From positions 1-64,000 of IMG/VR virus record IMGVR_UViG_3300024308_000018: a DNA stretch of 64,000 nucleotides. One strand, written 5' to 3'. Positions 1 through 54,357 of the stretch are shown piece by piece; within the stretch, counting starts at the first letter, position 1, and every line of letters starts with the position of its first letter. The position numbers and the translations under genes were made by a program. The notes below the pieces were generated by a model. It did no database searches and had not been told where the DNA came from. It worked only from the letters and a program-made list of their open reading frames with translations. This stretch comes from a virus.

Positions 1-120
1 AGCGTCGGGGTCTTCCTCTTCAGCGTCGGGGTCTTCCTCTTCAGCGTCGGGGTCTTCCTCTTCAGCGTCGGGGTCTTCCTCTTCAGCGTCGGGGTCTTCT
101 TCAGCGTCGGGGTCTTCTTC
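1..120 (-). repeat. 21/18-bp tandem coding repeat
   Basis: Four perfect 21-bp copies (1-21, 22-42, 43-63, 64-84) are followed by two 18-bp copies (85-102, 103-120) that lack one codon. On the minus strand they encode EEEDPDA and EEDPDA. The array continues to, and perhaps past, the window edge. Copy number is likely to vary between isolates by slippage without breaking the frame, because both unit lengths are multiples of three. Confidence 0.95.
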
Positions 121-1473
121 AGTGGCCGGATCTTCCTCTTCCTCTTCCTCGTCAGCAGGTTCTTCACCGCTGGCCTTAGCTTCCCACTTCGCGACGATGG
201 CGTCCTTGTCCTCTTCGGTAGTATCCGCAGCCTTCAGAGCCTTGGCATCTTCCTTATACTCGGCACGGGCAGCGGCTTCCGCTTCCTTGTCGTCACCAGC
301 GGCTTCGATCACAGACTTCAGAGCTTCAGCCATTCGCAGGCTGATGTCTTCGGCACGCTTGCGAGCATCGAGCTTGGATTTCTCCACGTCGTTCTCTTTG
401 GTGCGCTCGGCTTTCTTGTCATCCGACTGGCGAGTGACGTCACCTTCCAGATCCTCGCCGAAGTCCTCGTCATCGTCGACGTCTTCCTCTTCCATCGCGT
501 GCTCAAGCGGCTTCATCTTGCTTGCCTTGGCATTGCGGAGATCTTCATCCTGCAATCCGGCCTTGGCGCGGCGCTCTTCTTTCTGCTGCTCGGCCTTGGC
601 GGTTTCAACGCGGGCCACTTCGGCAACCTGCTTGGCGATTTCGCTATTCTCTTTGGCGTCGAGGATGCGGCGCTGCTTCTGCTCTTCCTCGCGCTTGGCC
701 TTGGCTTCACGTTCAGCGTTACGTGCAGCAGCCTGTTGGGCACGCTCTTCCTTCTCACGCTCGTTACGTTCGCGGACACGTTGGCGCTCTTTGTTGAGCT
801 GGTACTCCTTGATCATCTCGGGAGTAACAACGGTCTGCGGCCAGCGGCCCTTCGGCATTACCGGAAGGTCGGAGGCGATGCGGTCATACTCGGCGGTGGT
901 TACCGTTTCGTACAGGCCGTTGAGGTCGACGATCTTACCGCCCTGTGACGGACGGCCGAAGCGCATACCGATCTTATCGCCACGGCGCAGCTTGATAGGG
1001 CGCTTGTTGGTTTGAATCAGGTACTCGGGATCGCGAACAATGCGCCACTGATAGTTAGTGGTATCGACACCGAACGCTTCAGTGCCATCCCGACCGAATG
1101 CCTCGTTGCGCACAGCGCCCAGCGGTTTGAAGCGGTCGGAATCAAACTTCTGAGTAGCGGCGTCGTCGAGGATTTCTTTGGTCTTGGCAGTGGGCTGATC
1201 GCCTTGCAGGATAACGCGCTTGATGCGCTTGCCTGTGCTCGCAATCTTGTTGGCGCGCTGCTTGGTGATCTTGAACAGTTTCTTCGGCGCGTCCTCGGTT
1301 ACGATGTAGTAATCCTTGGAACGTGCAACGGGGCGGATGCCAACCCGCGTCCCTTCTTTGACTTGCGCCCGAGCAGTACCGCCAGTGACAGTGAAGGTGC
1401 TGCCCTTGTAGATGTACCACTCGAAATCTTGCTGCGCAGAAGTCGAGGCAATAGAGCTAATCGACAGTTGCAT
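1..1473 (-). CDS. Unknown protein with acidic repeat tail (3' end off window)
   Basis: An open frame starts at the ATG at 1473 and stays open for 491 codons to the window edge, so the stop codon is missing. The N-terminus reads MQLSISSIASTSAQQ, which resembles the short signature shared by the 20313-27630 operon. Residues ~1-230 look globular, with beta-rich and basic stretches. Then comes a long charged, probably coiled-coil region (roughly 240-340) rich in Lys, Arg, Glu and Ala. The last ~70 visible residues are almost all Asp/Glu, including a tandem repeat of EEEDPDA and EEDPDA units. The family is not recognised. Position after virion genes suggests a structural, internal or scaffold-like protein, but that is inference. 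Basic mid-part plus acidic tail could also suit a nucleic-acid-interacting protein. Confidence 0.85.
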   Translation of the reverse strand, partial: MQLSISSIASTSAQQDFEWYIYKGSTFTVTGGTARAQVKEGTRVGIRPVARSKDYYIVTEDAPKKLFKITKQRANKIASTGKRIKRVILQGDQPTAKTKEILDDAATQKFDSDRFKPLGAVRNEAFGRDGTEAFGVDTTNYQWRIVRDPEYLIQTNKRPIKLRRGDKIGMRFGRPSQGGKIVDLNGLYETVTTAEYDRIASDLPVMPKGRWPQTVVTPEMIKEYQLNKERQRVRERNEREKEERAQQAAARNAEREAKAKREEEQKQRRILDAKENSEIAKQVAEVARVETAKAEQQKEERRAKAGLQDEDLRNAKASKMKPLEHAMEEEDVDDDEDFGEDLEGDVTRQSDDKKAERTKENDVEKSKLDARKRAEDISLRMAEALKSVIEAAGDDKEAEAAARAEYKEDAKALKAADTTEEDKDAIVAKWEAKASGEEPADEEEEEEDPATEEDPDAEEDPDAEEEDPDAEEEDPDAEEEDPDAEEEDPDA

Positions 1474-20312: not shown

Positions 20313-22520
20313 TTACATAGTGCCCAGCCCAGAATTGAGCAGCATGCGCACGGCAGCAGGGTTGAAGTCTGCACCGAATCTGTCACGCAATTCCTCTTCG
20401 ATAGTGACGCCATGTTCCTGTGCATCTTCCACCGACTCTTGAACGTTGTACGCTGCTTGCATCAGCGGGAACATTCGGGCCACACGCAAGAACGACGGAA
20501 CGTTGCGGAGAGCTTGCTTCAGCAACGTCAGCATCTTGTTGGCGGTCTTCGGGTCAGCAGCGATTGCATTCATTACCGATCCGAAGGGGCCGCCATTGAA
20601 GTCCTCGGTGTTTGCCAGCGCCATGATACGAACGGGAGCAGCAGAAATCCACGACGTGATTCCAAGCGCGCCCTCAATTTCGCCGCGACCCCCGCTGCCG
20701 TTCAATAGCACGTCGAGACCGATCATTGCCATGGCGGGCTCAGTCCACAGCGCGTCCGGAATAGCATGGAAGAACTCGGGCCCATACTGCGGGCCTGACA
20801 TTGCTCCCTCAAAGGGAAGCATCAGCTTCACCATGAAGTTGCCACGTTTGGTTTCGTCCTTCATGTAATCCGCAATGCGCTTTGCAAGGTACGGACGCAT
20901 AGCGCTGATTGCCGTGTCGTTGGTGTCGTTGGCATACGTGCTATGCACCAGCAACGGCATCAGGTAGCTACCACGGAAAGCAGTCGCCCACTTGTCGGCA
21001 GGCATGCGCTCAATCAGCAGCTTCATCGTTGCTGGGCTGTGCGTACTGCCAGTCGACCGTCCCCTTACAAACTCGTTGTTGGCGGCTTCGACGAACTTCT
21101 TGAACATTGCGGGCATCTTGGTGTCGGGAGCAAGTGCGGCCTCGTAATACGGCGGCAGCTCGTCGACACCTTCATCCGCCCACGTCCGCTTCAAGATTTT
21201 GAGTTCGGCCTTGGTGAGGGTAACGCGGTGCCAGTTGTTGTGCGTGTCGGTCGTCATCAGTGACAACGCCTTCGCCGGAGAGATCCCAAACTTCGGAGCC
21301 GCGTCGAGCAGCGGACGACTGGCTTCCACATCCATCAGCATGGTGTAGAGGCGGGACATTGAAATGTCGCGTTCGGCGCGTACCGTGGAGGCCGCAACCT
21401 TGAACGCGTCAATCTCCGACAGCAGCTTCTGGCCCATCAGAGCGGATACCCGCAGCAGCGCAAGCGCGTCGTGCGTTACGAACGTGCTCGGGTTGTGGCA
21501 ATATCCGCGCGCTGCGATTTCCGCACAGTCCTTATAGGCGAGCGTGACCGCGTTGTCCTCGACGAGGATTCGGATCTTGCGCACGGCGCTCTCGGCCAGC
21601 CGCATATCCATCTCTTTCGAGTTGATCGCGTTGACCAGAGCGTAGAACTCGGACGCATCGGAACCGAACTTGGTCTCGAACATCCCCAACTCTTCCACTA
21701 CGGATTTGGGATTGGCGCGCAGCGACTTTTCCAACTCCTTCAGCGCGGTTGCCGGATCGTAGTTGTCATTGACTACAGTCTTGCGTCCATCGTTGTAGAG
21801 GTCGTCGAGCAGATCCATCGTCATGCCGTAGGGGATGCCGAAGTACGTTGCGTTCACTTCACTGCACCACTTACGCACGGTGTCGAAGAACAGTTGCGAA
21901 CGGGCGCCGTAAATGCCGGACGGGAACAGGCCCTTCTTGCCGTTCTCTGCACGATAGACACGCAGCAAGATACGGGCGCTCGGGCGCTGCAAGTTCAGGT
22001 CGTCTTTGCCCACAAGGTACGCGATGATCGATCCCTGAATGATGTCGTCCTTGACGTACTTGGCGTTGGAGCCGCCGACAAGGTGCATGCAGCTTACCCA
22101 ACCACGATCTGTCGACATGCCCGCCACGTCGTAAGGGTGGCGGGAGATCACGATCATCTGATTGCCTGACGCCGCGTTGCGTGCGTTACTACGCGACTTG
22201 TCGTTGGCGAACACCTTCTGCAACTCCGGCGTCAGCAGCTTACCGATCTTGATGCGACGTTTACCGCTGGCGTCCACGGCGATCCCCGTGATGTAGTCCT
22301 CGACAACGTAACCCTTTTCCGCAACTGACTTCTGGATTGCTTCAGGTACTGGGGCGTAAGCCACACGTTTTGCACCAGCCACTAGCGGCAAGTGGATGCG
22401 GTAGTTATTACGGTCACCAGTGTACTTGCGAAACAGATCGGCGTAGCGTTCTTTGTTCCACCCCTTCACGTACTGTCGGTATTGGCTGGGTTTCAGCGCC
22501 GACGTTGAGATGTTGATCAT
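20313..22520 (-). CDS. Large 'STSALKPSQY' protein, paralogue B
   Basis: 735 residues from the ATG at 22520. The first ~245 residues are strongly similar to those of the next gene upstream: MINISTSALKPSQYRQ, 'GYVVEDYITGIAVD..GKRRIKIGKLL', 'VISRHPYDVAGMSTDRGWVSCMHL', 'GSIIAYLVGKDDLNLQRPSARILLRV' and 'GLFPSGIYGA'. A conserved 'TDRGW.SCM' segment contains a Cys that could be catalytic or metal-binding. The remaining ~490 residues are helical and diverge from the paralogue. The short start motif is shared with four other proteins in this operon. No enzyme family is certain. The protein may be packaged in the virion and ejected into the host (inference from the shared tag). Confidence 0.85.
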   Translation of the reverse strand: MINISTSALKPSQYRQYVKGWNKERYADLFRKYTGDRNNYRIHLPLVAGAKRVAYAPVPEAIQKSVAEKGYVVEDYITGIAVDASGKRRIKIGKLLTPELQKVFANDKSRSNARNAASGNQMIVISRHPYDVAGMSTDRGWVSCMHLVGGSNAKYVKDDIIQGSIIAYLVGKDDLNLQRPSARILLRVYRAENGKKGLFPSGIYGARSQLFFDTVRKWCSEVNATYFGIPYGMTMDLLDDLYNDGRKTVVNDNYDPATALKELEKSLRANPKSVVEELGMFETKFGSDASEFYALVNAINSKEMDMRLAESAVRKIRILVEDNAVTLAYKDCAEIAARGYCHNPSTFVTHDALALLRVSALMGQKLLSEIDAFKVAASTVRAERDISMSRLYTMLMDVEASRPLLDAAPKFGISPAKALSLMTTDTHNNWHRVTLTKAELKILKRTWADEGVDELPPYYEAALAPDTKMPAMFKKFVEAANNEFVRGRSTGSTHSPATMKLLIERMPADKWATAFRGSYLMPLLVHSTYANDTNDTAISAMRPYLAKRIADYMKDETKRGNFMVKLMLPFEGAMSGPQYGPEFFHAIPDALWTEPAMAMIGLDVLLNGSGGRGEIEGALGITSWISAAPVRIMALANTEDFNGGPFGSVMNAIAADPKTANKMLTLLKQALRNVPSFLRVARMFPLMQAAYNVQESVEDAQEHGVTIEEELRDRFGADFNPAAVRMLLNSGLGTM

Positions 22521-22523
22521 TGA

Positions 22524-25169
22524 TTACTCCTGTGCCAGTCCAATAAGGGCTGCGGCGTAACGGGTGACGTCAGCCGGATTTGGCTTACGGGGCGAGAGGC
22601 GGCGGCGAAGTCCCGGCTCAATCGCGAGTTCGACACGACGCTGTAGCGAGACGTCTTCTTCGAAGTCTTCCTCTTCGTCAGCCACCAAGCGGTCAATCAT
22701 GCTTTGGATGCCTGCTTTGACTTTGTAGGTAAAGGTCTCGTTACCTATGGCAGCACGCAGCTTAGGCGGCAGCTTCGCCATGAAGGCGGTAACGCCCTCT
22801 TCCAGCTGCTTCCATGCAGGGCTCGCGATAGTGTCGAGCAGCTGGATCGGCAGTAACCGCTCGATGTAGTCGATGCGCCCTTTGTCGTCAAAGTCTTCGC
22901 TATCGAAGATGTAGTGCAGGGCCAGCAGCATCTCCATCTCTGGAGTCCGCCGCTTCGGCAACGCTGCCGTCAGTATCCGAGCAGAGTCAATACCTAGCGC
23001 ATGGTCGCACCCAGTAACGAAAGGAATTGCCACCATCAGATACGGAGCAAGCGGAGATCCCAGCGCCACAATCTGCGTATGCGACAGACCATGATACGAG
23101 ATGTCGACCTCGTTGTTCGGGTCGTGGGAGTTGAACATCTTCTCCATAGTGACCAACGCTGCATCTTCGGTGCTGATACTTGCGATCATTGCCGCGCGCA
23201 TAGTCTTGGACAATTTCTTGAACAGTGCGCTGTTGCCGAAGAGTGGGCTGCTCTTACGTGTGTGCATCAGGCCGCGCTTCTCCCCAGTGTAGAGGGATTC
23301 CGCAACACGAATCAGAATATCACTGCCGAGCAATGCGGGGTCTGAAGGTGCAGCCGCCGTCCATTCTTCAATGAACTTGGCTACGTTGTATCCCTCGCGG
23401 CGGATATGGGCGGCCAGCAACGCAACAGCGATGGAGGTTTTGTTGCCTGCCTTCAGGGTCTCAATCACCGATTCCAGACTCTTGGCGTTTAGGGCGGAGC
23501 GCAAGGTTCCCACAGATCTGCTCATGGGCATGGCGTTCACGCGAGCGAACGCAATAAACTCCGGCTTCGGATTGAACTGGGGAGCGTAGCTAATGCGCAT
23601 ACCGCTGATGTCCACAAGCCCATCCTTACCAACTTGCTTGAGCAGCTGCTTGATCGTAATGCGGCCTCGGCAGTAGTTGGCAAACTGTGCGAGCAGGTAG
23701 TCGTCGGATCCTTCTTCAAAGGACGCTGCAAGTTTCTTTGCATCCTCTTCTTCAAGGTAGAGGCCGAACAGAAGGTCGGCAACATTGGCCCCATCCCGAT
23801 CAGAAAGAGCGTCGACGTATGACGGCTCGTTCGAATAGATGTTCTCACCCTGATACTGCGCTAACTTGAACAGGTCTTTGATGAAGGTGACGACATCATC
23901 TCCGGAGTACGGGCTACTCTTGAAGTGATCGGAGGACAGACTAAACACCAGTGACTCAAAGCCTTTAATCTCCATCCACGTGTTAAACTGCTTGAAGACT
24001 TTGATGTTCGGCTCCCGCTTCGTCGCATTGGTGCGGGCCAGCGAGATCATCTGGGCGATGCAGCTAGTCAGGTACTCACGACTTGCGTCCGGCAGTCGCT
24101 GCACGTTGGTTATCAAGTTCTGGTCGCGCAGATGAATCATAGCACGCGGCACAAACACCGAACGTATGGCTTTCACCGAAGAGGGGTACTTGGCCTCGAA
24201 CACCTTGGCAGATTGAATAACGCTGTCTGCTTGCTTGGCGCTGGCATCGTATGAATTTGGATCAAACCCAGCGGCGCGCGCTTCACGGTCTGCCATGTTG
24301 TCCACGAGAACCACATAGGTATTGCGAAGTACCGCTTCTGAAATTTTGGATGGTGCGGTAGGTGCGTCGAGCAACGTGCGGATATTGGCAGCAGCGGTAT
24401 CCTCTTGCGGCAGGTGCGTCTCACGGGTCGCTGAGTCCGGATACAGCGACGAGAGCATTTTCATGGTCGTGCCGTAGGGGATCTTGAAGAACTTGGAGTT
24501 CACTTCACTGCACCACTTGGAGACCGTTAGGGCAAACGCGTCCGGCGCAGTTCCGTACACTCCTGACGGGAACAGTCCGATCTTGCCCTTGGCCTTGAAC
24601 ACGCGCATCAGGATTCTGGCTTTAGGTGACTGGATATTCAAGTCAGTGGCATCGACAAGATACGCAATGAGCGAGCCTTCTTTGACATCCTTGTTGACGT
24701 AGTGCTTGTTCTGACCGTCGATCAGATTCATGCAGCTAGTCCAGCCACGGTCAGTCGACATGCCAGCAACGTCATAAGGGTGACGCGAAATAACAACGGT
24801 CAGAGCACCAGACTTCTGCTTTGCCGCGCCCCGGCGTTTGTCGTTAGCAAACTCCTGCGCCACGTCGGAAGACTTCAGGATCTTACCGATGCGCACGCGG
24901 CGTTTACCAGTAGCGGAGTCCACGGCATAACCGCCGATGTAATCGTCAACGATGTAGCCAGCAGATTCCACGGCGGCCTTGACTGACGGCAGCGGCTCCA
25001 CTGGCTTTGCATCACGCGCTAAGGTCTTAGCAAGAGGCAGTGAGAAGCGGTATGCTTTAGGATCCGAAGTGTAGGCAGCAAATATGTCTGCGTACCGTCC
25101 CTTATCCCAGCCGCGCACAAACTTGCGATACTGGCTCGGCTTCAACGCCGATGTTGAAATATGAAGCAT
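22524..25169 (-). CDS. Large 'STSALKPSQY' protein, paralogue A
   Basis: 881 residues from the ATG at 25169. Homologous to the downstream gene in residues 1-~245 (MLHISTSALKPSQYRKF, 'GYIVDDYIGGYAVDSATGKRRVRIG', 'VISRHPYDVAGMSTDRGWTSCMNL', 'GSLIAYLVDATDLNIQSPKARILMRV', 'GLFPSGVYG'). The C-terminal ~630 residues are helical with little low complexity and end with 'DEEEDFEEDVSLQRRVELAIEPGLRRR' (quoted in part). The gene is three bases upstream of its paralogue. A conserved N-terminal module with different C-terminal bodies suggests a common activity or targeting domain with variable partners. Confidence 0.85.
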   Translation of the reverse strand: MLHISTSALKPSQYRKFVRGWDKGRYADIFAAYTSDPKAYRFSLPLAKTLARDAKPVEPLPSVKAAVESAGYIVDDYIGGYAVDSATGKRRVRIGKILKSSDVAQEFANDKRRGAAKQKSGALTVVISRHPYDVAGMSTDRGWTSCMNLIDGQNKHYVNKDVKEGSLIAYLVDATDLNIQSPKARILMRVFKAKGKIGLFPSGVYGTAPDAFALTVSKWCSEVNSKFFKIPYGTTMKMLSSLYPDSATRETHLPQEDTAAANIRTLLDAPTAPSKISEAVLRNTYVVLVDNMADREARAAGFDPNSYDASAKQADSVIQSAKVFEAKYPSSVKAIRSVFVPRAMIHLRDQNLITNVQRLPDASREYLTSCIAQMISLARTNATKREPNIKVFKQFNTWMEIKGFESLVFSLSSDHFKSSPYSGDDVVTFIKDLFKLAQYQGENIYSNEPSYVDALSDRDGANVADLLFGLYLEEEDAKKLAASFEEGSDDYLLAQFANYCRGRITIKQLLKQVGKDGLVDISGMRISYAPQFNPKPEFIAFARVNAMPMSRSVGTLRSALNAKSLESVIETLKAGNKTSIAVALLAAHIRREGYNVAKFIEEWTAAAPSDPALLGSDILIRVAESLYTGEKRGLMHTRKSSPLFGNSALFKKLSKTMRAAMIASISTEDAALVTMEKMFNSHDPNNEVDISYHGLSHTQIVALGSPLAPYLMVAIPFVTGCDHALGIDSARILTAALPKRRTPEMEMLLALHYIFDSEDFDDKGRIDYIERLLPIQLLDTIASPAWKQLEEGVTAFMAKLPPKLRAAIGNETFTYKVKAGIQSMIDRLVADEEEDFEEDVSLQRRVELAIEPGLRRRLSPRKPNPADVTRYAAALIGLAQE

Positions 25170-25178
25170 GGAATTTCC

Positions 25179-26018
25179 TTACAGCGCGTTCAGGGAGCCG
25201 ATATAGAGAACCTTATACAGCTTGCCAGTGGCCTTGTCGGTGACGACCTTCTCAACCAAGTTGCAATTGACGCCGTGACTGCGGTAGTGAGCAGCAATGT
25301 TGCTCGGACGTGCGACGCCCGTGGCGCTGTACTGAGTTGCACTGCCGAGGTTGATGCCACACACGCGGCACTTGGCGAACCCACGGAACTCAACAGCTTT
25401 GACTGACTTGAAGGCAATGGTCGGTGCCGAGCCCATCATGGCGAACAGGTCAGAGCGCGGAATCGTACCGTATAGGGTCTTGACCTTGCGAGTGACTGGG
25501 CCGTAGGCGAACGGCCAGAACATGAGGTGCGTGCCAGTATCGGTCTTCACTTCCTTGATAGCCAGCAACGCGGTGCCGAGCGCAATCACTTTCTTGGCGA
25601 GCGCCGTGCCATACTTGGCGGTGACTTCGGCGCGCTGCTCCTTGGTCAACTTGGCTGGGGCCTTCGCCTTGAACTTGATTTGCTTGCGCGCCTGTTCAGA
25701 TCCGGCCTTGGGGCCTATGGCCGCGAGCTTGGCTTTCAGCATATCGCCGCGCTTGGAGGCAGTCGTGCTTTGGGTGGAAGTAAGTCGGGCACCTACGCGA
25801 GGGGCGGGAAATTCCAGAAGCATTTTGCCGTCGTGTTTGACGAACACGTGGCCGCCTTGCTGGTCGTAAGTGATCACAACGTTATCGCCAGATGCAGTGT
25901 ACTTGGTGCCTCGCTTGGATGTTTTGATTCCAGACAGGCCAGCACGCTGTGCAATGATGCGCGCGAACAACTCGGGAGGGGTAGGCAGGTTGGCTGAGAT
26001 TGACAGTTGAATTTTCAT
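25179..26018 (-). CDS. Tagged protein with C2H2-like zinc finger
   Basis: 279 residues from the ATG at 26018. The start, MKIQLSISANLPTPPE, belongs to the tag shared in this operon. The middle is basic (Lys/Ala/Gln-rich, ~80-130). Near the C-terminus 'KCRVCGINLGSATQYS' followed by 'NIAAHYRSHGVNC' gives C-x2-C ... H-x3-H, consistent with a zinc-finger-like fold. A nucleic-acid-binding effector is a reasonable guess. No homologue is recognised. Confidence 0.8.
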   Translation of the reverse strand: MKIQLSISANLPTPPELFARIIAQRAGLSGIKTSKRGTKYTASGDNVVITYDQQGGHVFVKHDGKMLLEFPAPRVGARLTSTQSTTASKRGDMLKAKLAAIGPKAGSEQARKQIKFKAKAPAKLTKEQRAEVTAKYGTALAKKVIALGTALLAIKEVKTDTGTHLMFWPFAYGPVTRKVKTLYGTIPRSDLFAMMGSAPTIAFKSVKAVEFRGFAKCRVCGINLGSATQYSATGVARPSNIAAHYRSHGVNCNLVEKVVTDKATGKLYKVLYIGSLNAL

Positions 26019-26027
26019 GACAGATCC

Positions 26028-26456
26028 TTACCAGTCGTCGGCGACTGCTGGGCTATCTTGGCGGCGACGTTCGTCAAACTTGCGGCGGTCGGCTTCGCGT
26101 CGGTTGATGATGTACTCGGCGTAGTCATGCGCAGTACGCAGACCGAACTTCTTCATCTCAAGCAAGAGACGGTCGAGGCGCGTGCGATCCTTCATCATGC
26201 GAGAGCCCGCAGCACGTGACGCATTCTGGAACGCGGCAGACAGCTGACGTTCGAGGTCTTCGGCGTAACGTAGGTAACCGAGGAATCGCTTGTCGATTCC
26301 CTTGACGTCGTAGATCGCATCGTAGGTGTCGAACTCGGGGTCAGCAGTCAGGCGCAGCACGTGAAGCGCGGAACTCAGAATAGTCTCAAGTCCACGGCCA
26401 CTGTCGCCATACTTTGGGGCGGGTGCCTGTTTGTCCACCGCTTCTTCGATAGACAA
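26028..26456 (-). CDS. Small charged protein overlapping ART-like gene
   Basis: Up to 142 residues, but the only start that gives the full length is a TTG at 26456, so the true start is uncertain. It overlaps the upstream gene by up to 71 bases in a different frame. The sequence is helical and charged (LRYAEDLERQLSAAFQNASR, EYIINRREADRRKFDERRRQ) and ends in ADDW. It lacks the MKIQLS tag of its neighbours, so it may be a partner or immunity-type protein, or the product of a frameshift-linked extension of the gene upstream. Confidence 0.55.
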   Translation of the reverse strand: MSIEEAVDKQAPAPKYGDSGRGLETILSSALHVLRLTADPEFDTYDAIYDVKGIDKRFLGYLRYAEDLERQLSAAFQNASRAAGSRMMKDRTRLDRLLLEMKKFGLRTAHDYAEYIINRREADRRKFDERRRQDSPAVADDW

Positions 26457-26904
26457 GCGGCCCTTCCCTGCCGATCACGTGGTCGTAACCAGCGGCCTTG
26501 AGCATGTCGACGATGCTCTTGTCCTCCATGTACCACGCCCAGACTTTCTTGAACTTGCCAGTGTCCTTTTCAGTCATATCGAACAACTGATCCATTACGT
26601 TGCGATACTGCGCTTTGGTCATAGAGCCGCTGTTCGCTCTGTTATTCACGGCGGTCTTGATGCGGTCGAGTACGTCGGCTCGCTTTACCTCCGTGTCGAA
26701 CGTGCGGAAGCCGAAGTTGAACCCGTGGTTGACGTTCACGGAGAAGCGCATCAGGTGGCGCGGGTCACCAGCGTAACGCATTGCGTACTGACGATCAGTT
26801 GTGAGCCACACGATATGCGAGCGGTCATGAACGGCTTGGTCAAACGCAACTTGCAGGCCACGGTAATAAATCCTGTGGCCCGATAGTGAGAGTTGGATTT
26901 GCAT
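26386..26904 (-). CDS. Tagged ADP-ribosyltransferase-like protein 2
   Basis: 172 residues from the ATG at 26904. It starts MQIQLSLSGHRIYYRG, carrying the operon tag fused almost directly to an ART-like first strand ('IYYRG'). 'IVWLTTDRQYAMRYAG' follows, matching the second conserved strand-helix of ADP-ribosyltransferases ('h.hT.d...A..YA'), and 'AAGYDHVIGREGPLVYR' matches the closing 'GYD.h......h.hh' strand. ART enzymes transfer ADP-ribose from NAD+ to proteins or nucleic acids; phages use them to reprogram the host. Catalytic residues cannot be fixed by eye. A 71-base overlap with the downstream frame makes the exact C-terminus worth checking. Confidence 0.6.
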   Translation of the reverse strand: MQIQLSLSGHRIYYRGLQVAFDQAVHDRSHIVWLTTDRQYAMRYAGDPRHLMRFSVNVNHGFNFGFRTFDTEVKRADVLDRIKTAVNNRANSGSMTKAQYRNVMDQLFDMTEKDTGKFKKVWAWYMEDKSIVDMLKAAGYDHVIGREGPLVYRRSGGQTGTRPKVWRQWPWT

Positions 26905-26913
26905 CTTGGTTCC

Positions 26914-27630
26914 CTAGTCGGTGATGTCGGCAACGCGACGGTAACGTCCACTGTTACCTACAGCGGATTTGATCTGCAACGGAGAGAACACGACGTACAC
27001 GTCGCCTCCCGGTCGCCGGGCAACGACACCATCGTATCCGGTAGCCGCAGCGAAAATCTCTGGGAAGTGTCCAGCGGTAGGCTGCCCCTCGTAGAGGTCG
27101 CTCCACAACATCATCGACGCGTGAATCAGATCGTGTCCGATGTAGTTCTCGGCGTATTCGTGGATACTGCGTTGCATGCCCTGAAATTCCACGTCGTAGT
27201 TGTCGCGGATGAAGCGTTCAAGGTTGCGGCGGCCGAGGCCAGTCAACATCTTGCTTACTTGCGTGCGGGTAATCTTCGGCTGGCGGTAGAAGTCGATGGG
27301 CTTCTTGATGCGCAGGTACACGGGCATGACGTTACTGCTCTCAGGGTCAGTGCCGTCCTTTCCCGTAACGCGGTCAATCTTGTTGCGCGTGTAGGTGTTC
27401 GCCATCTCTGGCGCGCTTGTGAAGTAGTAGCCAATCCCGTACTGGTCAACGCCGGAGCCGATGTACTTGGGGTCGAACTGCTTGAATTCTTTGGGAGTGC
27501 CATGGTAACAACGCAGAGGCGCACCAGACTTGTCGCGAACCACACTTTTGCCGAACCAACGTTCGAACTTTGCAAGTTCTGCGGAGGTCAATGCCGAATA
27601 CGCTTTCGACATTGAAAGTTGGATTTTCAT
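26914..27630 (-). CDS. Tagged ADP-ribosyltransferase (ART-PolyVal-like)
   Basis: 238 residues from the ATG at 27630, first gene of the operon. After the tag MKIQLSMSKAYSALTSAE, the ART-PolyVal pattern is clear: 'LRCYHGTPKEFKQFD' (first strand, His), 'GIGYYFTSAPEMANTYT' (Tyr), 'VMPVYLRIKKPIDF', and at the end 'GYDGVVARRPGGDVYVVFSPLQIKSAVGN'. This family occurs in polyvalent proteins of phages and conjugative elements, thought to be delivered with the DNA into a new host. It probably modifies host targets with ADP-ribose. Target unknown. Confidence 0.75.
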   Translation of the reverse strand: MKIQLSMSKAYSALTSAELAKFERWFGKSVVRDKSGAPLRCYHGTPKEFKQFDPKYIGSGVDQYGIGYYFTSAPEMANTYTRNKIDRVTGKDGTDPESSNVMPVYLRIKKPIDFYRQPKITRTQVSKMLTGLGRRNLERFIRDNYDVEFQGMQRSIHEYAENYIGHDLIHASMMLWSDLYEGQPTAGHFPEIFAAATGYDGVVARRPGGDVYVVFSPLQIKSAVGNSGRYRRVADITD

Positions 27631-39330: not shown

Positions 39331-42300
39331 TTACTTCTTGGGCTCGTCGGCGGTGGGGCGCACGCGGATTTCCGAGAGCGTCTTGACCACGGCCTTGAGG
39401 TTGGTAATGGTGTAACCAGCTTTCTGCAACTGGGACAGCACGCGCTTGGCTTCCGTGGGGTTAGCCACGAAGTTGATCGCCATGCTTTCGTGCAGTTTCC
39501 AAGTCGCGTACTTGGCGGTGGCACCGACCGATACCTTGCCGACGAGCTTGCGCGCGTGCGGGTTGGTCTTCAGGTCGATCATCACGCGCATACGGTCACG
39601 CATGAAGGACGGATATGCCTTCAGGATGTTGGGCTTCTGGTTGTCGATGTGGCGCGTGCGGAAGAACTCGATAACTTCGTTCTTCAGTTTGTACGCAACC
39701 GGGTAGAGGAACTTCGAACGGCCAGACTCGCTGAACACGTTCTGGATCTCTTCCAGTCGCTTGGCACTTGCCTTGTCGAACGGGCCTTCACCGAACACTG
39801 AATCCAAGTAATCAAGGTGAGCGTAGAAGTCCTTGATATACAGGGAGTCGGCATAGACGTACTCGCCGAACACTTTGAACCCGAAGCTCTTGACCAGTTC
39901 CTTGTAGTCACTGTCGCTGGTGTTCACGTAGATAGCCAGCAGGCCGTTATACACGGTCGGGTAAACTTCGATGCTCTTGTCGGGAGCGGCAGCGGCAGCT
40001 TTCGGGGTACGCGTGCGCGGAACCTTGTTGCCCGCAACGTCGACGTCCTTGCCAGTAGGCATAACGATCTTGCCTTCGGTGTCGGTGTCGCTGAGTACAG
40101 GCAGACCCGAGTTGATGGCCTTGCCCTCCTTGACGTTCTGCTTGCGAGTACCGCTGGCCTTCGCGCCTTCGGTTGCAACTTCGGCCCCTTCGCGGATCTG
40201 TTTGTCGATGTCGCGTTGGATTGCTTCTTCTTGCTTCCGACGTTTGTCCTCGGCCTTGGTGATTGCATCCTCGACTTCGGAGTCGCGCTTGGTCTTCGGC
40301 ACGGGCTTGACTCCGCCCTTGCTTCCCTTGGCGAACACGCTGCTACGCAGTACCGGATCCTTGATGGCGTTGACCGACACGTGGACACGACCTACCCCGA
40401 CAATGCGCTCACTGCCATCCTGATACTGCACTCGGACGGTGGTGAACGTCGGGTCAGCTTGACGCCGCTCGACGTCTGCGAACTTCTCGTCGTTGACCTT
40501 GCCAATACCGACGATGATACCGTTGCCCCATTCGGTGTGAACCGGAACCCCGTCAAACAACTTGCGGTGCTCTGCCTTGTTGTCGTTGTACGGAACCTTG
40601 GAGCCGCGCGACTTGTAGTAGTCACGGAACGATACCAGACCAAAGCCCCAGCGGTCGTGGATGCGTTGGTTCGGAACATACGGCACGTTGTCCAGCATGC
40701 GATAGCCAGCAGCAGGATCAACAGGCGCACCTTCAATGACGTGCATCGCGGACGCAGTTGACAGGCGCATCTCTGCGAACTCTGCGGCGTCGATAGCACT
40801 CAGGTTTGCCTTGGCGACGAAGTGTTGCAGGCTCTCGTCTTCCGGATCCATGTAGGTGTCGAAGTTGATCCACTTACCAGTCTTATCCAGAATGGTTTCG
40901 GCGTTGTAGGGCGGCTCTTGCATTGCTGCCCACTTCTTCACCTCGTCGTAGCGTGGGTTGCCCGCTTCGTCCCAGATGGTGGTCTTCACATCCTTGGCCG
41001 TCACACGCGCTACCTTCAGCACCTCCATCGTGTTGTTGGTCATCACCCAGTCGATGAAGATTACTTCACGCTTCATGTCACCCGGCTTTCCGTTCTCGTC
41101 GAAGATTGCGGAGTTGAAGTCCGGACGCATGATACGTGCATGCGACTGGCGAACGCGACCCGGTGACCACGGAGTGTCACAGCGGATAATGCGCGAACCG
41201 ATCTGCATGTTGTAGCCTTCAGTGATCCGCTGCTCGTTCGCCACCAGAATGCGGGCTTCAGAGTTGTTGCGGAACTGTTCGACCAGCTCTTTGGTGTCGG
41301 CACCTTTGCCCAGACGGATGGCGTAACGCGCCAGCTTCGGAGCGAGCTTCTTGAGCGACTTGATCACGGAATCGCCGGAGCGGGTGTATTCGCACAGCAC
41401 GATAACCTTGCCCGTGTCTTCCGGTTTCCAGTATTCCAGATCCTTGTCCGGAGTGACGTTGGATTCCGGCAGGCGGAAACGTTGCGGCGTACCCTGCTTC
41501 TGCTTACGTGCCAGATAGCGCTTGCCCTGATACACGCACAGGTCGAGTTCGAACGGACGGCAGCCCGCTTTCCACTCAAACATCTGGTGCATCTGTGCGA
41601 TCTCTTCGCCGTCATCATTGCGCTGCGGCTTGGCAGGCTCGATGAAGTTGGGCTGGACTTCGAAGTGCTTCTTGATCCGCTCGACAATCTTGTGCATCTT
41701 GACGGGGATGAAGTCTTTCACGCCCTGCTCTTTGAAGATCTCGACAGCTTCTGGGTCACCCATCGGGTCAGACAGGATCATTTCCATGCGCTGCCAGTAT
41801 TGGCGCAGCTTCACGGACGACGCAATCATCGAGCCGATAGAGTCAGCCGCTTCTTCCTCTTCTTCGAGCACTGCATCTTCATCAGCCAGCTCGTCGTCTT
41901 CGGATTCCGCGTCCTCGTCTTTCTTGACCGGGCCCTTGCGCTTGATCTCGGCCATCACCTCTTCGACCAACGCAGCGTACACAGCGTCATAGGCAATCTT
42001 GTGCAGGCCGGAGTGCGGCACGCTCGGATCGTCGATGTCGAAGTGCAGGAAGGTCTCGATAGGGTTGGGCAGCATGAACGCCCACTCTTTCCGCTTGTAC
42101 GATGCCATCGTTGCATAGTTGCTGAAGCGACCACGCATTGCGGCAACGCGCTTGTTGAACAGGTCAACAGCGTCCAGAGTTACAGCGCCATCACCGTTGG
42201 AGCGGGAGGCGTCTTCGATGTCCTGACCGTCGCCGAAGATACCCGGCGTGAACATTGCGGCTTGACCAACAACGTCAGACACCTTGTCGGGCACCAGAGT

Positions 42301-45300
42301 ACCGGTAGCCAGACGCTTGAACTTGACAGTGGATTGCAGGAACATCTGCTTGATAGCAGCGTGCACGCCGGAGCCAGAGTTCTTGACGCGGTGCGATTCG
42401 TCGAGGATCACGTAGTTGAACTTGTAGCGACGCAGGAATTCAGTCTGCGCCATGATAGTCACGCGCTCGCCACCGATGTCGGCATCGAAGCGGCCATGGT
42501 GGTTGGCGATGAACGTATCGGCGAACACGAAAATGGTGTTGACCGGAGCGTTGGACAGCAACTCCTGAATGCGCTCAAGGCCGTGCTCTTTCACGGTCTC
42601 GTTGGTGATCGGAACCACGTTCCAGTCGTGAGTGACCAGCAGCAAGTCTTCGCACCAGTTGGCGACCAGACCCTTCGGCGCGATTACCGCAGGTTTAATC
42701 GGCTCGTCCATGATCGACGCACACCACAGAATGTCGTGCAGGCCGAGGATGGTCTTACCGCCACCCGGATGGATGTCGAGCGTCGCGTAGGGCGGCGGCA
42801 CTTTCTTCGACAGCTGAGTCTGCGCCTTGAACTGGTGCGGCATCAGCGTGAAGTCGTGCGTACCTGCAATCTTCAGCGACTCTTCGCTCACGCTATCGTC
42901 AGGCTGGTTGGCCTCAACGTGGGCTTCGACGGCCTCGAAGTAACGGCGGGTGTCGGGAATCGCATGACCGAACATGAACGCGGTCGGCAGCACTGCACGC
43001 ATCAGGAAGCCGGACGGCATCAGGTTGGTTTCGTACAGGGCGCTGAACACTTTCTTCCGGTCGGCGTCGAACACAGCACGCGACATCGCAACCAGCAACG
43101 CACCGCCCAGATAACCACGCAGGTTACCCATGGTATGCAGGCCGGACTTCGACGGGCTGTCGATGAAGCGCCAGTCGTTCACGATCTCAGTGCTTTGACC
43201 CTGACGTTCCCAGAAGCCACGCAGGCGGCCACCGCGATACGAATCACGGGCGTCTTCGATTGCCAGCAGGACGCGGTACATTGCGATCTCGCCATCGTTC
43301 GCCAGACGGCCTTGCGCGGAGTACATGCCAGCGTCGATATAGTTGGCGGGCTCGGCTTCGGGATCGTGCTCCTGAGTGTACGCCATCTGGATCGCTTTCG
43401 CTTGGTTGTTGATTTCCTCGAAGGAGGGAACCAGACCCTTCTGCTGCATCCAGTCGTAGGTGCGGACGATCATGCACGCGGCATAACGCAGCATGTGCGG
43501 GCTACGGGCAGACTTCAGATCGTTCCAGTTGTTATTGTTGTAGCCAGCGTGCGGCACAGCAAACTCGTACTTGGTGCCGATACTAGCGGACATCGCGCTG
43601 ACCACGCGGTCGGTCACAGCACCTACCAGCATCAAGCGCTCGTTGGTTGCGTTGTAGCGCAGGAACTGGCCGAGTACGCGGGAGCCAGTGCGGATGTTCG
43701 GCGCTTCGCCTTCGGCTGCAAAGTTGAAGCCCAAGCTATCACCGATTTCCAGATCGGCAGCGGGTACTGCGCCGCTCTCCTGAATGGAGTCGAAGTTCAG
43801 GAAGTCCGCAGAGGTCTGGATAACCAAACCGGAAGTCGGATCCGTACCAACGACAACGTTGGAGAAGCGGTTGGCCTTGGCGCTGAAGTCGTTGTGCAGC
43901 GACGCGATGTTGACAGTGGTCTCACCGTTGACGCGCTCCAAATCGAGTTCCAGCACCTTGCGGTACTCGGTGCTCAAGTGGCCGACGGGGATGCCGTGCT
44001 CGTACAGAGTGCTCATGCCGTCGGCAAGTGCGGATTCTGCTTTCGCTACGACTTCGAGGTCGATGTCTTGGGTACGCGGGTACACGACCAGCGCGCCGTT
44101 GCTGCTGACTGCTACGCCCTTGTCATCGCCGATGGAGTCGGAGATGGGGAAGCCCAGCTTTTTGCGCATGTCGTTCAGGCGCTTGATCTCGGTGCTCGAA
44201 GTCAGGCAGCGCGGAACGTTGCTGCGGCTACCAGTGCGAGAACCGGACAGGCGGAAGAAGCCTTGGCACCAGCGGTTGAACCAACGAGCAAGCAGCAGCT
44301 CGGCCGCAGAGTGATCGTCGTTCTGGATGATGTAGTCGACCACAGGGTTCGGCAGGTGCAGGGTGTAACCCACGTGCACTACGAAACCGCAGTATGGCAA
44401 CATCGCATCGTGCATGGAAGCCATGCTACCAGCGTTGGTGCTACCGCTCAAGAGCGCGGCGGCGCGGGCGGTGTGTGCTTCAGCCAGTACACGACGCACG
44501 GTGAACTTGAACATCGGGCCGAGGTTAACGCGCACGGGATCAGGCACGAAGCGCGACGGGAAGAACACGGTGTTACCGATGGCTTCCTTGACGCCGGGGA
44601 TTTTCTGCAACGCAGCATTCAGCACGCTGAAGTTGGTGTCGAGATCGAAGTGCACAGTCTTCGACTTCAGGTTGGCCTTGGAGGGCACGTCGCCGAAGAA
44701 GAACTTGTGGAACGCCAGCGCTGCCTTGTGCACCGCTTGCCCGAACTCGGACTGCATGCCGCCGAAGTAGAAGTCACGGAACTCCTTGCTGGCTGATGTG
44801 TCGTCGGGCTTGCCAGACTTCTCGAACTCGGGCGAGCTGCCGTTGTACTGGAAGTAGGGGTCAATACCGGAGCCAACTTCGGAAACCAGCGAGTCGTTGC
44901 GGTAGGTCTGAAACGCGTTCCAGTAACCTTCGTTGGTGCCCGCAATCTTCACAACTTGCAATTCGTAGCCGTCGTTCCCGCGCTTGATTACCAAGTCGCT
45001 GGTGTTCGACATTGCCGCAGTGATCATGCCGCGAGTGGCGGACGTAATCATGGGCGTGCCGCTCTGCATCTTGGCGAGTACGGAGCCGCAGCTGGATTCG
45101 AACACTTGGGAAATCAGGGCAGCCGCACGACCGTTAGTGCCACGCATCTTTTCGAAGATCAGGGTGTTGCTGATCTCGACACTATTACGCATCAGCGCAG
45201 ATAAGAAGGACTGATACAGCTTGATGCGAACGTTCAAGGTGATCAGAGACTCAGCGAACGGGCCGTATTGGTCGGGACGCGGAGTGTTAGCCACGTCGCG

Positions 45301-45480
45301 CGTTGCCTTGGTCAGGCGATCAGGCGGAAACAGCGCATTGGAGAATACGGTTTCGTACTTCGGGTCGAGCGGGCGCGCCGTCAGCTCTGCCCCAATCTGA
45401 GCGCGCAGCTGGCTGGCTACGCCACCCGTTTCCTTGGGCGCTGCCGACTCAGATTGGAAGACGTTGAAGGGATATTGCAT
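39331..45480 (-). CDS. Giant SNF2-type helicase (2049 residues)
   Basis: 2049 residues from the ATG at 45480, three bases after the previous gene. Residues 1-~890 are a large unknown N-terminal region with no methyltransferase signature seen. A SNF2/SF2 ATPase core follows: Walker A 'HPGGGKT' near 905, 'PKGLVANWCEDLL' (motif Ia), DESH near 1024, 'LATGTLVP' (motif III); then an acidic insert (DEEEEEAADS), and the second RecA domain with 'GKVIVLCEYTRSGDSV' and motif VI 'QSHARIMRPD' near 1447. Near 1650 'VHTEWGNGIIVGIGKV' looks like an SH3-type fold. The tail holds charged linkers and a small domain. Remodels DNA-protein complexes or unwinds DNA. Possibly virion-packaged, as is known for some giant phage helicases; unproven. 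Confidence 0.8.
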   Translation of the reverse strand: MQYPFNVFQSESAAPKETGGVASQLRAQIGAELTARPLDPKYETVFSNALFPPDRLTKATRDVANTPRPDQYGPFAESLITLNVRIKLYQSFLSALMRNSVEISNTLIFEKMRGTNGRAAALISQVFESSCGSVLAKMQSGTPMITSATRGMITAAMSNTSDLVIKRGNDGYELQVVKIAGTNEGYWNAFQTYRNDSLVSEVGSGIDPYFQYNGSSPEFEKSGKPDDTSASKEFRDFYFGGMQSEFGQAVHKAALAFHKFFFGDVPSKANLKSKTVHFDLDTNFSVLNAALQKIPGVKEAIGNTVFFPSRFVPDPVRVNLGPMFKFTVRRVLAEAHTARAAALLSGSTNAGSMASMHDAMLPYCGFVVHVGYTLHLPNPVVDYIIQNDDHSAAELLLARWFNRWCQGFFRLSGSRTGSRSNVPRCLTSSTEIKRLNDMRKKLGFPISDSIGDDKGVAVSSNGALVVYPRTQDIDLEVVAKAESALADGMSTLYEHGIPVGHLSTEYRKVLELDLERVNGETTVNIASLHNDFSAKANRFSNVVVGTDPTSGLVIQTSADFLNFDSIQESGAVPAADLEIGDSLGFNFAAEGEAPNIRTGSRVLGQFLRYNATNERLMLVGAVTDRVVSAMSASIGTKYEFAVPHAGYNNNNWNDLKSARSPHMLRYAACMIVRTYDWMQQKGLVPSFEEINNQAKAIQMAYTQEHDPEAEPANYIDAGMYSAQGRLANDGEIAMYRVLLAIEDARDSYRGGRLRGFWERQGQSTEIVNDWRFIDSPSKSGLHTMGNLRGYLGGALLVAMSRAVFDADRKKVFSALYETNLMPSGFLMRAVLPTAFMFGHAIPDTRRYFEAVEAHVEANQPDDSVSEESLKIAGTHDFTLMPHQFKAQTQLSKKVPPPYATLDIHPGGGKTILGLHDILWCASIMDEPIKPAVIAPKGLVANWCEDLLLVTHDWNVVPITNETVKEHGLERIQELLSNAPVNTIFVFADTFIANHHGRFDADIGGERVTIMAQTEFLRRYKFNYVILDESHRVKNSGSGVHAAIKQMFLQSTVKFKRLATGTLVPDKVSDVVGQAAMFTPGIFGDGQDIEDASRSNGDGAVTLDAVDLFNKRVAAMRGRFSNYATMASYKRKEWAFMLPNPIETFLHFDIDDPSVPHSGLHKIAYDAVYAALVEEVMAEIKRKGPVKKDEDAESEDDELADEDAVLEEEEEAADSIGSMIASSVKLRQYWQRMEMILSDPMGDPEAVEIFKEQGVKDFIPVKMHKIVERIKKHFEVQPNFIEPAKPQRNDDGEEIAQMHQMFEWKAGCRPFELDLCVYQGKRYLARKQKQGTPQRFRLPESNVTPDKDLEYWKPEDTGKVIVLCEYTRSGDSVIKSLKKLAPKLARYAIRLGKGADTKELVEQFRNNSEARILVANEQRITEGYNMQIGSRIIRCDTPWSPGRVRQSHARIMRPDFNSAIFDENGKPGDMKREVIFIDWVMTNNTMEVLKVARVTAKDVKTTIWDEAGNPRYDEVKKWAAMQEPPYNAETILDKTGKWINFDTYMDPEDESLQHFVAKANLSAIDAAEFAEMRLSTASAMHVIEGAPVDPAAGYRMLDNVPYVPNQRIHDRWGFGLVSFRDYYKSRGSKVPYNDNKAEHRKLFDGVPVHTEWGNGIIVGIGKVNDEKFADVERRQADPTFTTVRVQYQDGSERIVGVGRVHVSVNAIKDPVLRSSVFAKGSKGGVKPVPKTKRDSEVEDAITKAEDKRRKQEEAIQRDIDKQIREGAEVATEGAKASGTRKQNVKEGKAINSGLPVLSDTDTEGKIVMPTGKDVDVAGNKVPRTRTPKAAAAAPDKSIEVYPTVYNGLLAIYVNTSDSDYKELVKSFGFKVFGEYVYADSLYIKDFYAHLDYLDSVFGEGPFDKASAKRLEEIQNVFSESGRSKFLYPVAYKLKNEVIEFFRTRHIDNQKPNILKAYPSFMRDRMRVMIDLKTNPHARKLVGKVSVGATAKYATWKLHESMAINFVANPTEAKRVLSQLQKAGYTITNLKAVVKTLSEIRVRPTADEPKK

Positions 45481-48000: not shown

Positions 48001-48804
48001 TTACGCGAAGGCGTGACCTTTGATGATTTCGGACAGCTTCTTGAAATACTCGGGAGCGTGACCGAACACACGACGGTAGTAGTCGAGCAGAGTCTTGCTG
48101 CTGTTGGCGGCAGCGCTCTCGCTCAGGTGCACGTCGGGGTACTTGATGTTGTCGCTGGGCAGTACCGCGATCACCGCTTCACGGCTCACGCTGAACACTT
48201 CGCCGTCCATGCTCTGAACAGCCAGCGCTTCTTGCCCGTCAGCGGACTTGCTCACGTAGGCGATGAAGCCAACGTCGACTTGCTTGTCGTCGCGCACGAA
48301 GGACACGATGTCGGAACCTTCAGCAGCGGACAGACTGGCAGCGAAGTTGGCGCACGCTTTACGCAGGATCGGGTCGCGGCCGATTTCAACAGCGATGTCG
48401 CTGGAGCAGGACTGCATCATATCCGCGAGTTCGGCCGGGTCTTCGCTCACGCTACGCACCAGCATTTGCTGATCGCCGGAGCTACGCAGAGCCCACAACT
48501 TCTCGTTGGCATCCATGAACATGTTGGAGGACAGCGCGGTCATGTTGCCAGCAGCGGTAGCAGGCAGCACTTCGTGGGCCGGGGCCATCATGGCACGGAA
48601 GATCGCTTCGTTGGCGCCACGCTCTTCCATCATTACGACAGAGCCGGGAATGGTGGACATGCGGTGGCCGCTGGCAGCAGACAGAGCAACCAGCATCTCG
48701 TCGGCGGACGACATGGAGGCAATGCCCTGCACGGTAGCGATCACGCTAACGATGTTGGAAGAGGAATGAGCAACTTCGGTATTCTTGATTTGAGCAGACA
48801 GCAT
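48001..48804 (-). CDS. Unknown protein, Ser/Met-rich
   Basis: 267 residues from the ATG at 48804. Starts with a small-residue-rich helical region (VIATVQGIASMSSADEMLVAL, ATAAGNMTALSSNMFMDANE), then a small beta domain (VGFIAYVSKSADGQEALAVQ) and a helical end. No family recognised. Last gene of a group of virion-like genes; possibly structural. Confidence 0.65.
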   Translation of the reverse strand: MLSAQIKNTEVAHSSSNIVSVIATVQGIASMSSADEMLVALSAASGHRMSTIPGSVVMMEERGANEAIFRAMMAPAHEVLPATAAGNMTALSSNMFMDANEKLWALRSSGDQQMLVRSVSEDPAELADMMQSCSSDIAVEIGRDPILRKACANFAASLSAAEGSDIVSFVRDDKQVDVGFIAYVSKSADGQEALAVQSMDGEVFSVSREAVIAVLPSDNIKYPDVHLSESAAANSSKTLLDYYRRVFGHAPEYFKKLSEIIKGHAFA

Positions 48805-53310: not shown

Positions 53311-54357
53311 CTATGAATAACCAATTTCAGAGAGGGCTGTTTTTAGCAGGCGTCCGCAACTTTTGATTTCGTCTTTCGAAAGTCCAGCCGAAACCAAGTG
53401 TCGCTTCAAACCTTTGCGCGGGTGCATTGCGGTTGACGCAATCTTCACTTCCAACGTTCCATGTTCTTCAATTTGCTGCAACGTATGTTTCGCAACGCCT
53501 TTCAGTTGTGCAATGTTGGGATAGCGAATCCGCAAGTCAGCTGGCACTACAACTCCCTCTTCAATGAAGAGGCGATAACGTAGGTACTTGTTTTCCACAA
53601 GTGAGCTGAAATCCTGCTGCTCTGAAATTATCTTCGTTTCAAGAATAAACTTCGGAGTGTTTGGCACAAACTTATGGGAAATATTTAACTTCGATTTCGC
53701 ATAGTATGCTTTGAACTCCAAGAAACCTTTCGGCAAACTTTCACCGAACGTTTTCTGGTATGGCGAACCATTGATGATCATTCTTCGTTTCAACAATTCT
53801 TGGTACAGGTGAATGTGCCCGCCAATTGTGAAGTCACGATCATTGACTGTGATGTCATGCGAAGTTCGCAACGGATGTCCGTTGTCACCGCGCGCACCAA
53901 CAACGTCACAGTGCACAAAGTTCAAACATGGTTTCTTGTGCGGTATGCTTTCCTTTGCCGGATGCGGCAGGAAGTTTACAACGACACCGCCAATCACAAG
54001 TTGCTCAGGCTCCAGAAACACGTGGAACGTTTTCAGGAAATCCCATTCGCAGAACTGCGAGATCAAATCCATCGACGTGTGCTTTGCATCAGCACGGTCA
54101 TGGTTGCCGCCGATGTAGTAAGTGTTGATCTTGCCATCATACTTAATGAGCAAGGCGAGCAACTTACGTTTGGTCTCGTCCGTCATTGTCGACGTGTCGG
54201 TGATGTCACCGGGAACGAAAACGTGGTTGATGCCTTGCTCCAACGCGTAAAGATAAATCTTGTCAATCTCGGCCAGCTGTAGGTCAACTCCCTCGGGGCC
54301 GAAATGCTTGTTCATTGCTTCAAGGTGCCAGTCACTGGTCGAGATTGCGTGCAACAT
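53311..54357 (-). CDS. Mre11/SbcD-like nuclease (T4 gp47 type)
   Basis: 348 residues from the ATG at 54357. Calcineurin-like phosphoesterase ligands are visible: Asp9-x-His11 in 'STSDWHLE', Asp51 in 'VPGDITD', Asn85-His86-Asp87 in 'IGGNHDRAD', a later His in 'FVHCDVVGARG' and G-H-x-H in 'IGGHIHLYQEL'. It forms a complex with a Rad50-like ATPase (here the 61784-64000 gene) to process DNA ends for recombination-dependent replication. The gene is visibly richer in A+T than its neighbours (see findings). Ends without a visible terminator. Confidence 0.85.
   Translation of the reverse strand: MLHAISTSDWHLEAMNKHFGPEGVDLQLAEIDKIYLYALEQGINHVFVPGDITDTSTMTDETKRKLLALLIKYDGKINTYYIGGNHDRADAKHTSMDLISQFCEWDFLKTFHVFLEPEQLVIGGVVVNFLPHPAKESIPHKKPCLNFVHCDVVGARGDNGHPLRTSHDITVNDRDFTIGGHIHLYQELLKRRMIINGSPYQKTFGESLPKGFLEFKAYYAKSKLNISHKFVPNTPKFILETKIISEQQDFSSLVENKYLRYRLFIEEGVVVPADLRIRYPNIAQLKGVAKHTLQQIEEHGTLEVKIASTAMHPRKGLKRHLVSAGLSKDEIKSCGRLLKTALSEIGYS

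Follow-up and report, generated by a model that had tools for sequence, protein, structure and literature searches.

What is the function of a short N-terminal sequence that recurs on otherwise unrelated phage proteins? The question is raised by an operon on the minus strand at 20313-27630 of the window, as we call the whole 64,000-nt stretch of DNA analysed here, which belongs to a virus record of 229,746 bases. Its five tagged starts, predicted earlier from the sequence, were all confirmed as ATG open reading frames beginning with MxIQLSxS or MxxISTSA (Table 1). As argued below from sequence comparison, the tag is very probably a T4-like capsid-targeting propeptide, which would be cut by a Ser/Ala-preferring prohead protease and would mark cargo for packaging and injection.

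The window's proteins have relatives in the 'Lupandier' jumbo myoviruses, a group defined in PMC7412058 (Pseudomonas Lu11 and PaBG, Dickeya JA29, Erwinia Alexandra and Yoloswag), and in Pseudomonas HRDY3. The comparison covered the full-length genomes of our own record, Lu11, JA29, HRDY3, Alexandra and Yoloswag; PaBG was covered by four stretches of 50 kb and, for selected genes, a fifth. A simple purpose-made gene caller was used on all genomes, so the tag counts could move slightly with another caller. The two ends of the virus record (window 1-1473, record 228742-229746) are joined by an 825-aa gene that runs through a GTCGGGGTCTTCCTCTTCA tandem repeat; circularity or circular permutation of the record is probable.

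Table 1 Tagged genes and related features. Positions are those of the window unless marked as record; an arrow marks the end of the tag.
Feature	Position	Strand	Start	Remarks
Large paralogue 2	20313-22520	-	MINISTS↓ALKPSQYR	
Large paralogue 1 (881 aa)	22524-25169	-	MLHISTS↓ALKPSQYR	
Tagged protein with Cys/His zinc-finger-like stretch	25179-26018	-	MKIQLSIS↓A	
Untagged deletion remnant	26028-26456	-		C-terminal end of a tagged gene intact in L132 (7186-8133)
Tagged protein, possibly ART-like	26386-26904	-	MQIQLSLS↓G	
Tagged ADP-ribosyltransferase	26914-27630	-	MKIQLSMS↓K	Pfam ART-PolyVal, 3.6e-24
N-terminal part of 825-aa protein	1-1473	-	MQLSISSIASTSA	continues at other record end to 228742
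Giant helicase	39331-45480	-	MQYPFNVFQSESA↓A	PHROG DNA helicase
Head-region protein (267 aa)	48001-48804	-		three S-x-S-A sites
Tagged gene outside window	record 196636-197859		MEIQLSVSA	
Tagged gene outside window	record 208950-209615		MLLNLSLSA	
Core protein	record 216266-218563			near MCP gene
Head maturation (prohead) protease	record 222754-223545			E 4.5e-90

Once the first 14 amino acids are removed, the two large paralogues are the only homologous pair among the five proteins (54.7% identity, E 1e-77). Synonymous codons vary among the five tag-coding starts; the likeness therefore sits at the protein level, and a DNA-level element over the start codon is ruled out. Two of the bodies had been described as ADP-ribosyltransferase (ART)-like. 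This holds for 26914-27630, which scores 86.6 bits for ART-PolyVal (PF18760), above the curated cut-off of 31.2, and whose JA29 homologue (47% identity) starts MELLISLSK. It does not hold to the same degree for 26386-26904, for which we found no Pfam match and obtained a poor structure model (pLDDT 61); the YYRG and W-T-DR-YA--YA conserved between this protein and its relatives are only suggestive of an ART, and its tag is kept in 14 relatives. A single-sequence viral scan with the zinc-finger-like protein (279 aa) found nothing, and phage records gave no relative; its relative in contig L132 begins MQVQLSLS.

Contig L132 is the closest relative, with 88% identity in the N-terminal part of the 881-aa paralogue; its corresponding operon holds about 11 tagged genes. 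Compared with L132 2878-8133, the window is without about 4.8 kb, including several tagged genes. Alignment with L132 also shows that 26386-26904 has lost its native end and carries a foreign C-terminus, a deletion scar. Cargo genes appear to be exchanged while the tag persists, as would be expected of a delivery signal.

We then compared the frequency of the motif at gene starts with chance. By regular expression, nine of our phage's 249 genes have h-S-x-S starts, where internal Met positions predict 0.77; the motif is thus above chance genome-wide, and the five or six tagged proteins of the original prediction were too small a set, since genes outside the window belong to it as well. Such starts number 11 in JA29 (0.41 expected), 9 in Alexandra (0.35) and 14 in Yoloswag (0.56), and h-A-x-A starts 14 in Lu11 (1.34) and 13 in HRDY3 (1.58); PaBG has few tags, with four h-A-x-A starts against 0.9 expected. 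Pairs of N-terminal 8-mers alike at six or more of the eight positions number 4 in our genome, where two nulls give 0.1-0.2, and 32 in Lu11, 15 in HRDY3, 4 in JA29 and 3 in Alexandra, the two nulls averaging 0 to 0.8 across genomes. Our tagged genes also cluster (10 pairs at most five genes apart vs 1.5 after shuffling; 0/2000), as do those of JA29, Lu11 and HRDY3 (0/2000 shuffles), and the same shuffle test found no clustering in Alexandra or Yoloswag. More tagged genes emerge from a per-genome profile, although some of its lower-scoring matches are probably chance. Among the nine h-S-x-S starts, 53311 and perhaps 7373 are probably chance matches. The tag-like start MLHAISTSDWHLE (ISTSDWH) of 53311-54357 (minus strand) was rejected as such, being the first strand of an SbcD-type nuclease fold, and is a useful decoy for motif searches.

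The protein starting at 1473, originally proposed as a sixth tagged one, does have a tag-like start, but its gene is incomplete in the window; the whole protein has 825 aa, and its relatives start MIISLAAAA (Lu11) and MILSVSAS (Alexandra). The giant helicases of Alexandra and JA29 carry S-x-S close to the N-terminus, and relatives of the 267-aa head-region protein carry VLSESA or VATASA. A second class of N-termini was seen at record 198593, 199655, 200058 and 71200 (-), namely MNINLGLNMVSES, MNIALGLN and MIELTISMVSES, the last of which precedes a Lys-rich 104-aa protein. The strand is present in these N-termini and S-x-S often lies a few residues downstream; they are perhaps a longer form of the tag.

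Between 9 and 14 tagged genes each are found in Lu11, HRDY3, JA29, Yoloswag and Alexandra, with S-x-S or A-x-A depending on the phage. The tag thereby comes in dialects: MKIQLSxS in our phage, MKIQLAVA in Lu11, MEMMLALA in HRDY3 and M[EQ][ILV]xxSLS in JA29. Behind it stand ART-PolyVal domains (above the Pfam cut-off in our phage and in contigs L166 and L176, sub-threshold in L132 and Lu11). L132 also has a tagged NUDIX protein (E 6.6e-17), and Lu11 and HRDY3 each have a tagged topoisomerase I; one tagged L132 gene has a weak Pfam match below its curated cut-off. In JA29, the protein encoded at 106684-108654 (L050) starts MTEFKSISAS and resembles the NAD-dependent DNA ligase of Yersinia phage fHe-Yen9-02, with a start longer than in that phage; this ligase-like protein is possibly packaged.

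The motif at the end of the tag recurs in head proteins. Our core protein contains 15 hSxS sites against 3.6 expected (z 6.6), and those of the other S-phages 10 vs 3.5 (JA29) and 9 vs 2.8 (Alexandra). The core proteins of the A-phages are instead enriched for hAxA, with 17 vs 3.8 in Lu11 (z 6.9), 15 vs 3.5 in HRDY3 and 11 vs 2.9 in PaBG; as a control, the same test on T4 gp22 gave 16 [LI]xE sites against 5.7 expected. The S/A split is not absolute, because the JA29 core protein is also enriched for hAxA (6 vs 1.3 expected). Within our proteome the core protein leads by far in S-x-S-A content (9 sites, p 8e-9, 0/5000 composition shuffles); its Lu11 counterpart ranks first in that proteome for A[TSV]A[SA] (p 5e-11). 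Second in Lu11 is a small Zn-ribbon protein (IATASA...LATASA), whose gene adjoins the portal gene in our phage, JA29 and Alexandra. All 11 MCPs compared carry a site of the S-x-S/A-x-A type at 18-22% of their length, and most carry another at about 9%. Single internal S/A sites can be chance, S and A being common residues. The PaBG MCP was reported to lose about 20% on maturation, and a predicted cut at its AVAA site removes 20.4-21.0%. For the mature MCP N-terminus, solved structures gave only the distant match 6wkk, aligned from residue 108. An S-x-S close to the N-terminus is present in all three S-phages in families that include the MCP, core protein, protease, giant helicase and 267-aa head-region protein, a list that alone is no proof because some members (such as 77103 and 109691) are without a known head tie. 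In contigs L152, L156 and L176, tag arrays directly adjoin the core-MCP genes.

The large paralogues allow the end of the tag to be compared at a homologous position. An alignment scan found the family at 79 IMG/VR loci (a single-sequence viral scan with the 881-aa paralogue found nothing), with relatives in jumbo phages and megaphages and invariant H-P-Y-D, G, R, W and C residues (HPYDxxGMSTDRGWxSCM). We scored the propeptide end in those members whose N-terminus was successfully anchored on the conserved body. Of these, 27 have E at P1, and in 22 of the 27 the end reads [LI]-x-E, with the xxE member L142 (EFAIE↓AL) left out of this count; S-x-S occurs in 14 (7 found by script and 7 by eye as SLS↓AL or SIS↓AL) and A-x-A in 6, P3 and P1 switching together. 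Examples of the first kind are MKLAELLE↓ALKPSQYR, MRIQELVE↓ALKPSQYR and, in Agrobacterium phage Atu_ph07, MQYTDLIE↓ALKPSEYR. [LI]-x-E is the T4 gp21 motif. An LIE site of gp21 is mentioned in PMC9026906. The replacement of [LI]-x-E by S-x-S or A-x-A at the homologous position links the tag with prohead proteases in a way that does not depend on the statistics of the head proteins. The statement that no clear protease site follows the tag must therefore be revised, as the tag ends in the very motif that is enriched in the core, lies at about 20% of the MCP and replaces [LI]xE.

Residues 1-290 of the 881-aa paralogue gave a good model (pLDDT 82), in which residues 1-5 fall below 50; the tag therefore does not look part of the fold. 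A PDB search for the fold of this domain gave no match with E <= 0.001. With unrelated bodies and a tag disordered in the large-domain model, the first strand of a common fold is ruled out, and with it the concern that the motif belonged to a single known fold.

Virion data are available for PaBG, in which 14 virion proteins were identified (PMC7412058), most of them without the tag. One of the 14, gp202, is a homologue of our giant helicase and begins MGSLFTLNSLSA↓A. Another, gp83, whose gene lies next to that of topoisomerase I, begins MLIKINLLEAVAA and resembles Alexandra's MALIKINLAGAVESVSA.

Taken together, the dialects, the head-protein motifs and the homologous position strongly support the capsid-targeting idea of the original prediction. 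We propose that the beginning of the tag (M-x-I-x-L/V) would attach to the scaffold core while the prohead grows and thereby bring the protein in. The tag end (h-S-x-S in our phage, h-A-x-A in Lu11 and HRDY3) would be the site of the phage's prohead protease, which would remove the tag during processing of the core and of the MCP propeptide, and the freed cargo would be kept in the head and pass into the host together with the DNA. Candidate cargo comprises the ADP-ribosyltransferase, the zinc-finger-like protein and the two large paralogues, together with the NUDIX protein and another ART-like protein in L132. For the window's own proteins, we infer core binding, cleavage, packaging and injection from these comparisons.

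A targeting tag could also bind the core or inner shell and stay on; its likeness to a protease site would then be incidental, the result of a shared binding groove. The residue after the tag is K, G, N or D in some cases, which leaves P1' free, and T4 IPIII with Asp at position 10 was targeted yet not processed (PMC9026906). However, the large-family tag ends exactly at its relatives' [LI]-x-E, the T4 processing motif, and the tag dialect tracks the core and MCP sites, so we consider an uncleaved tag unlikely. Still less probable is a localisation or partner-binding signal that acts in the infected cell, for example at the replication compartment or host membrane, rather than in the capsid. 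The hydrophobic start of the tag would suit such a signal, as would the tagged topoisomerase I of Lu11 and HRDY3, which would also act on intracellular DNA; yet the motif repeats in core and MCP and the exchange with [LI]-x-E would be left unexplained, the presence of gp202 and gp83 in PaBG virions speaks against it, and phiKZ-like nuclear import reportedly does not use conventional terminal signals (PMC13282480).

We give very little credence to coincidence or a translation-start effect, whether through biased early codons or an initial beta strand that many folds have. Early codons in this genome are generally enriched for K, I and N, and the tag-like start at 53311 is indeed such a first strand. 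But column-shuffled N-termini, in which the bias is kept, give 0.1 alike pairs against the 4, 32 and 15 counted in our genome, Lu11 and HRDY3, the S or A letter tracks the phage and not the gene family, and the tag is of low confidence in the structure model.

For the Lu11/PaBG/Salmondvirus jumbo phages as a whole, it appears likely that the P1 preference of the protease has moved from Glu to Ser/Ala, that head proteins and injected effectors have changed along with it, and that the tag lists the injected proteins. If so, a tag of 7-9 residues readable from sequence would reveal the injected proteins across a whole genome, DNA topoisomerase I and the giant helicase among them, and the injected effector set would be open-ended and quickly exchanged. 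Such a sequence rule would predict early-injected proteins, otherwise obtained only by virion proteomics, and would offer dozens of unstudied candidate effectors, among them ADP-ribosyltransferases, NUDIX proteins and the large HPYD/GMSTDRGW family. The findings further suggest a protease and many substrates shifting specificity jointly, a clean case of co-evolution, and a 9-residue tag would be a simple signal for loading reporters into large phage heads. No earlier report of the S-x-S/A-x-A tag was found in the literature searched (outside subscription journals and preprints).

Among known systems, the capsid-targeting sequence (CTS) of T4 IPIII, IPII, IPI and Alt likewise is an N-terminal propeptide on unrelated proteins with a protease site at its end, and T4 Alt is likewise an ADP-ribosyltransferase. 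A core protein rich in the propeptide's own cleavage motif is a further likeness to T4. The propeptide of the T4 internal proteins has 10-19 residues, with the targeting part first and the protease site last (PMC9026906). Our tag, too, is a short N-terminal propeptide common to unrelated proteins, and its end matches, by motif, the predicted protease sites of core and MCP. It differs in having S-x-S or A-x-A at P3-x-P1 where T4 has [LI]-x-E, in its length of only 7-9 residues with a beta-strand-like character, and in its presence on as many as a dozen genes of a single operon. Because [LI]-x-E with Glu at P1 is not what this phage group carries, the tag is not of the canonical T4 type. In the jumbo phages phiKZ and SPN3US, many head or ejected proteins are cut at one short motif (gp175 and gp245, respectively; PMC10052503, PMC13282480), but these motifs, S/A/G-X-E and A-X-E, retain Glu at P1, unlike the tag here. 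The CTS of P1 DarB, also located at the N-terminus, directs a large protein, and likewise a reporter, into the head (PMC9024508); it differs in requiring >9 and <30 residues and in lacking a consensus among Dar proteins. Finally, 26914-27630 is a member of the ART-PolyVal family, whose name describes the cargo rather than the tag.
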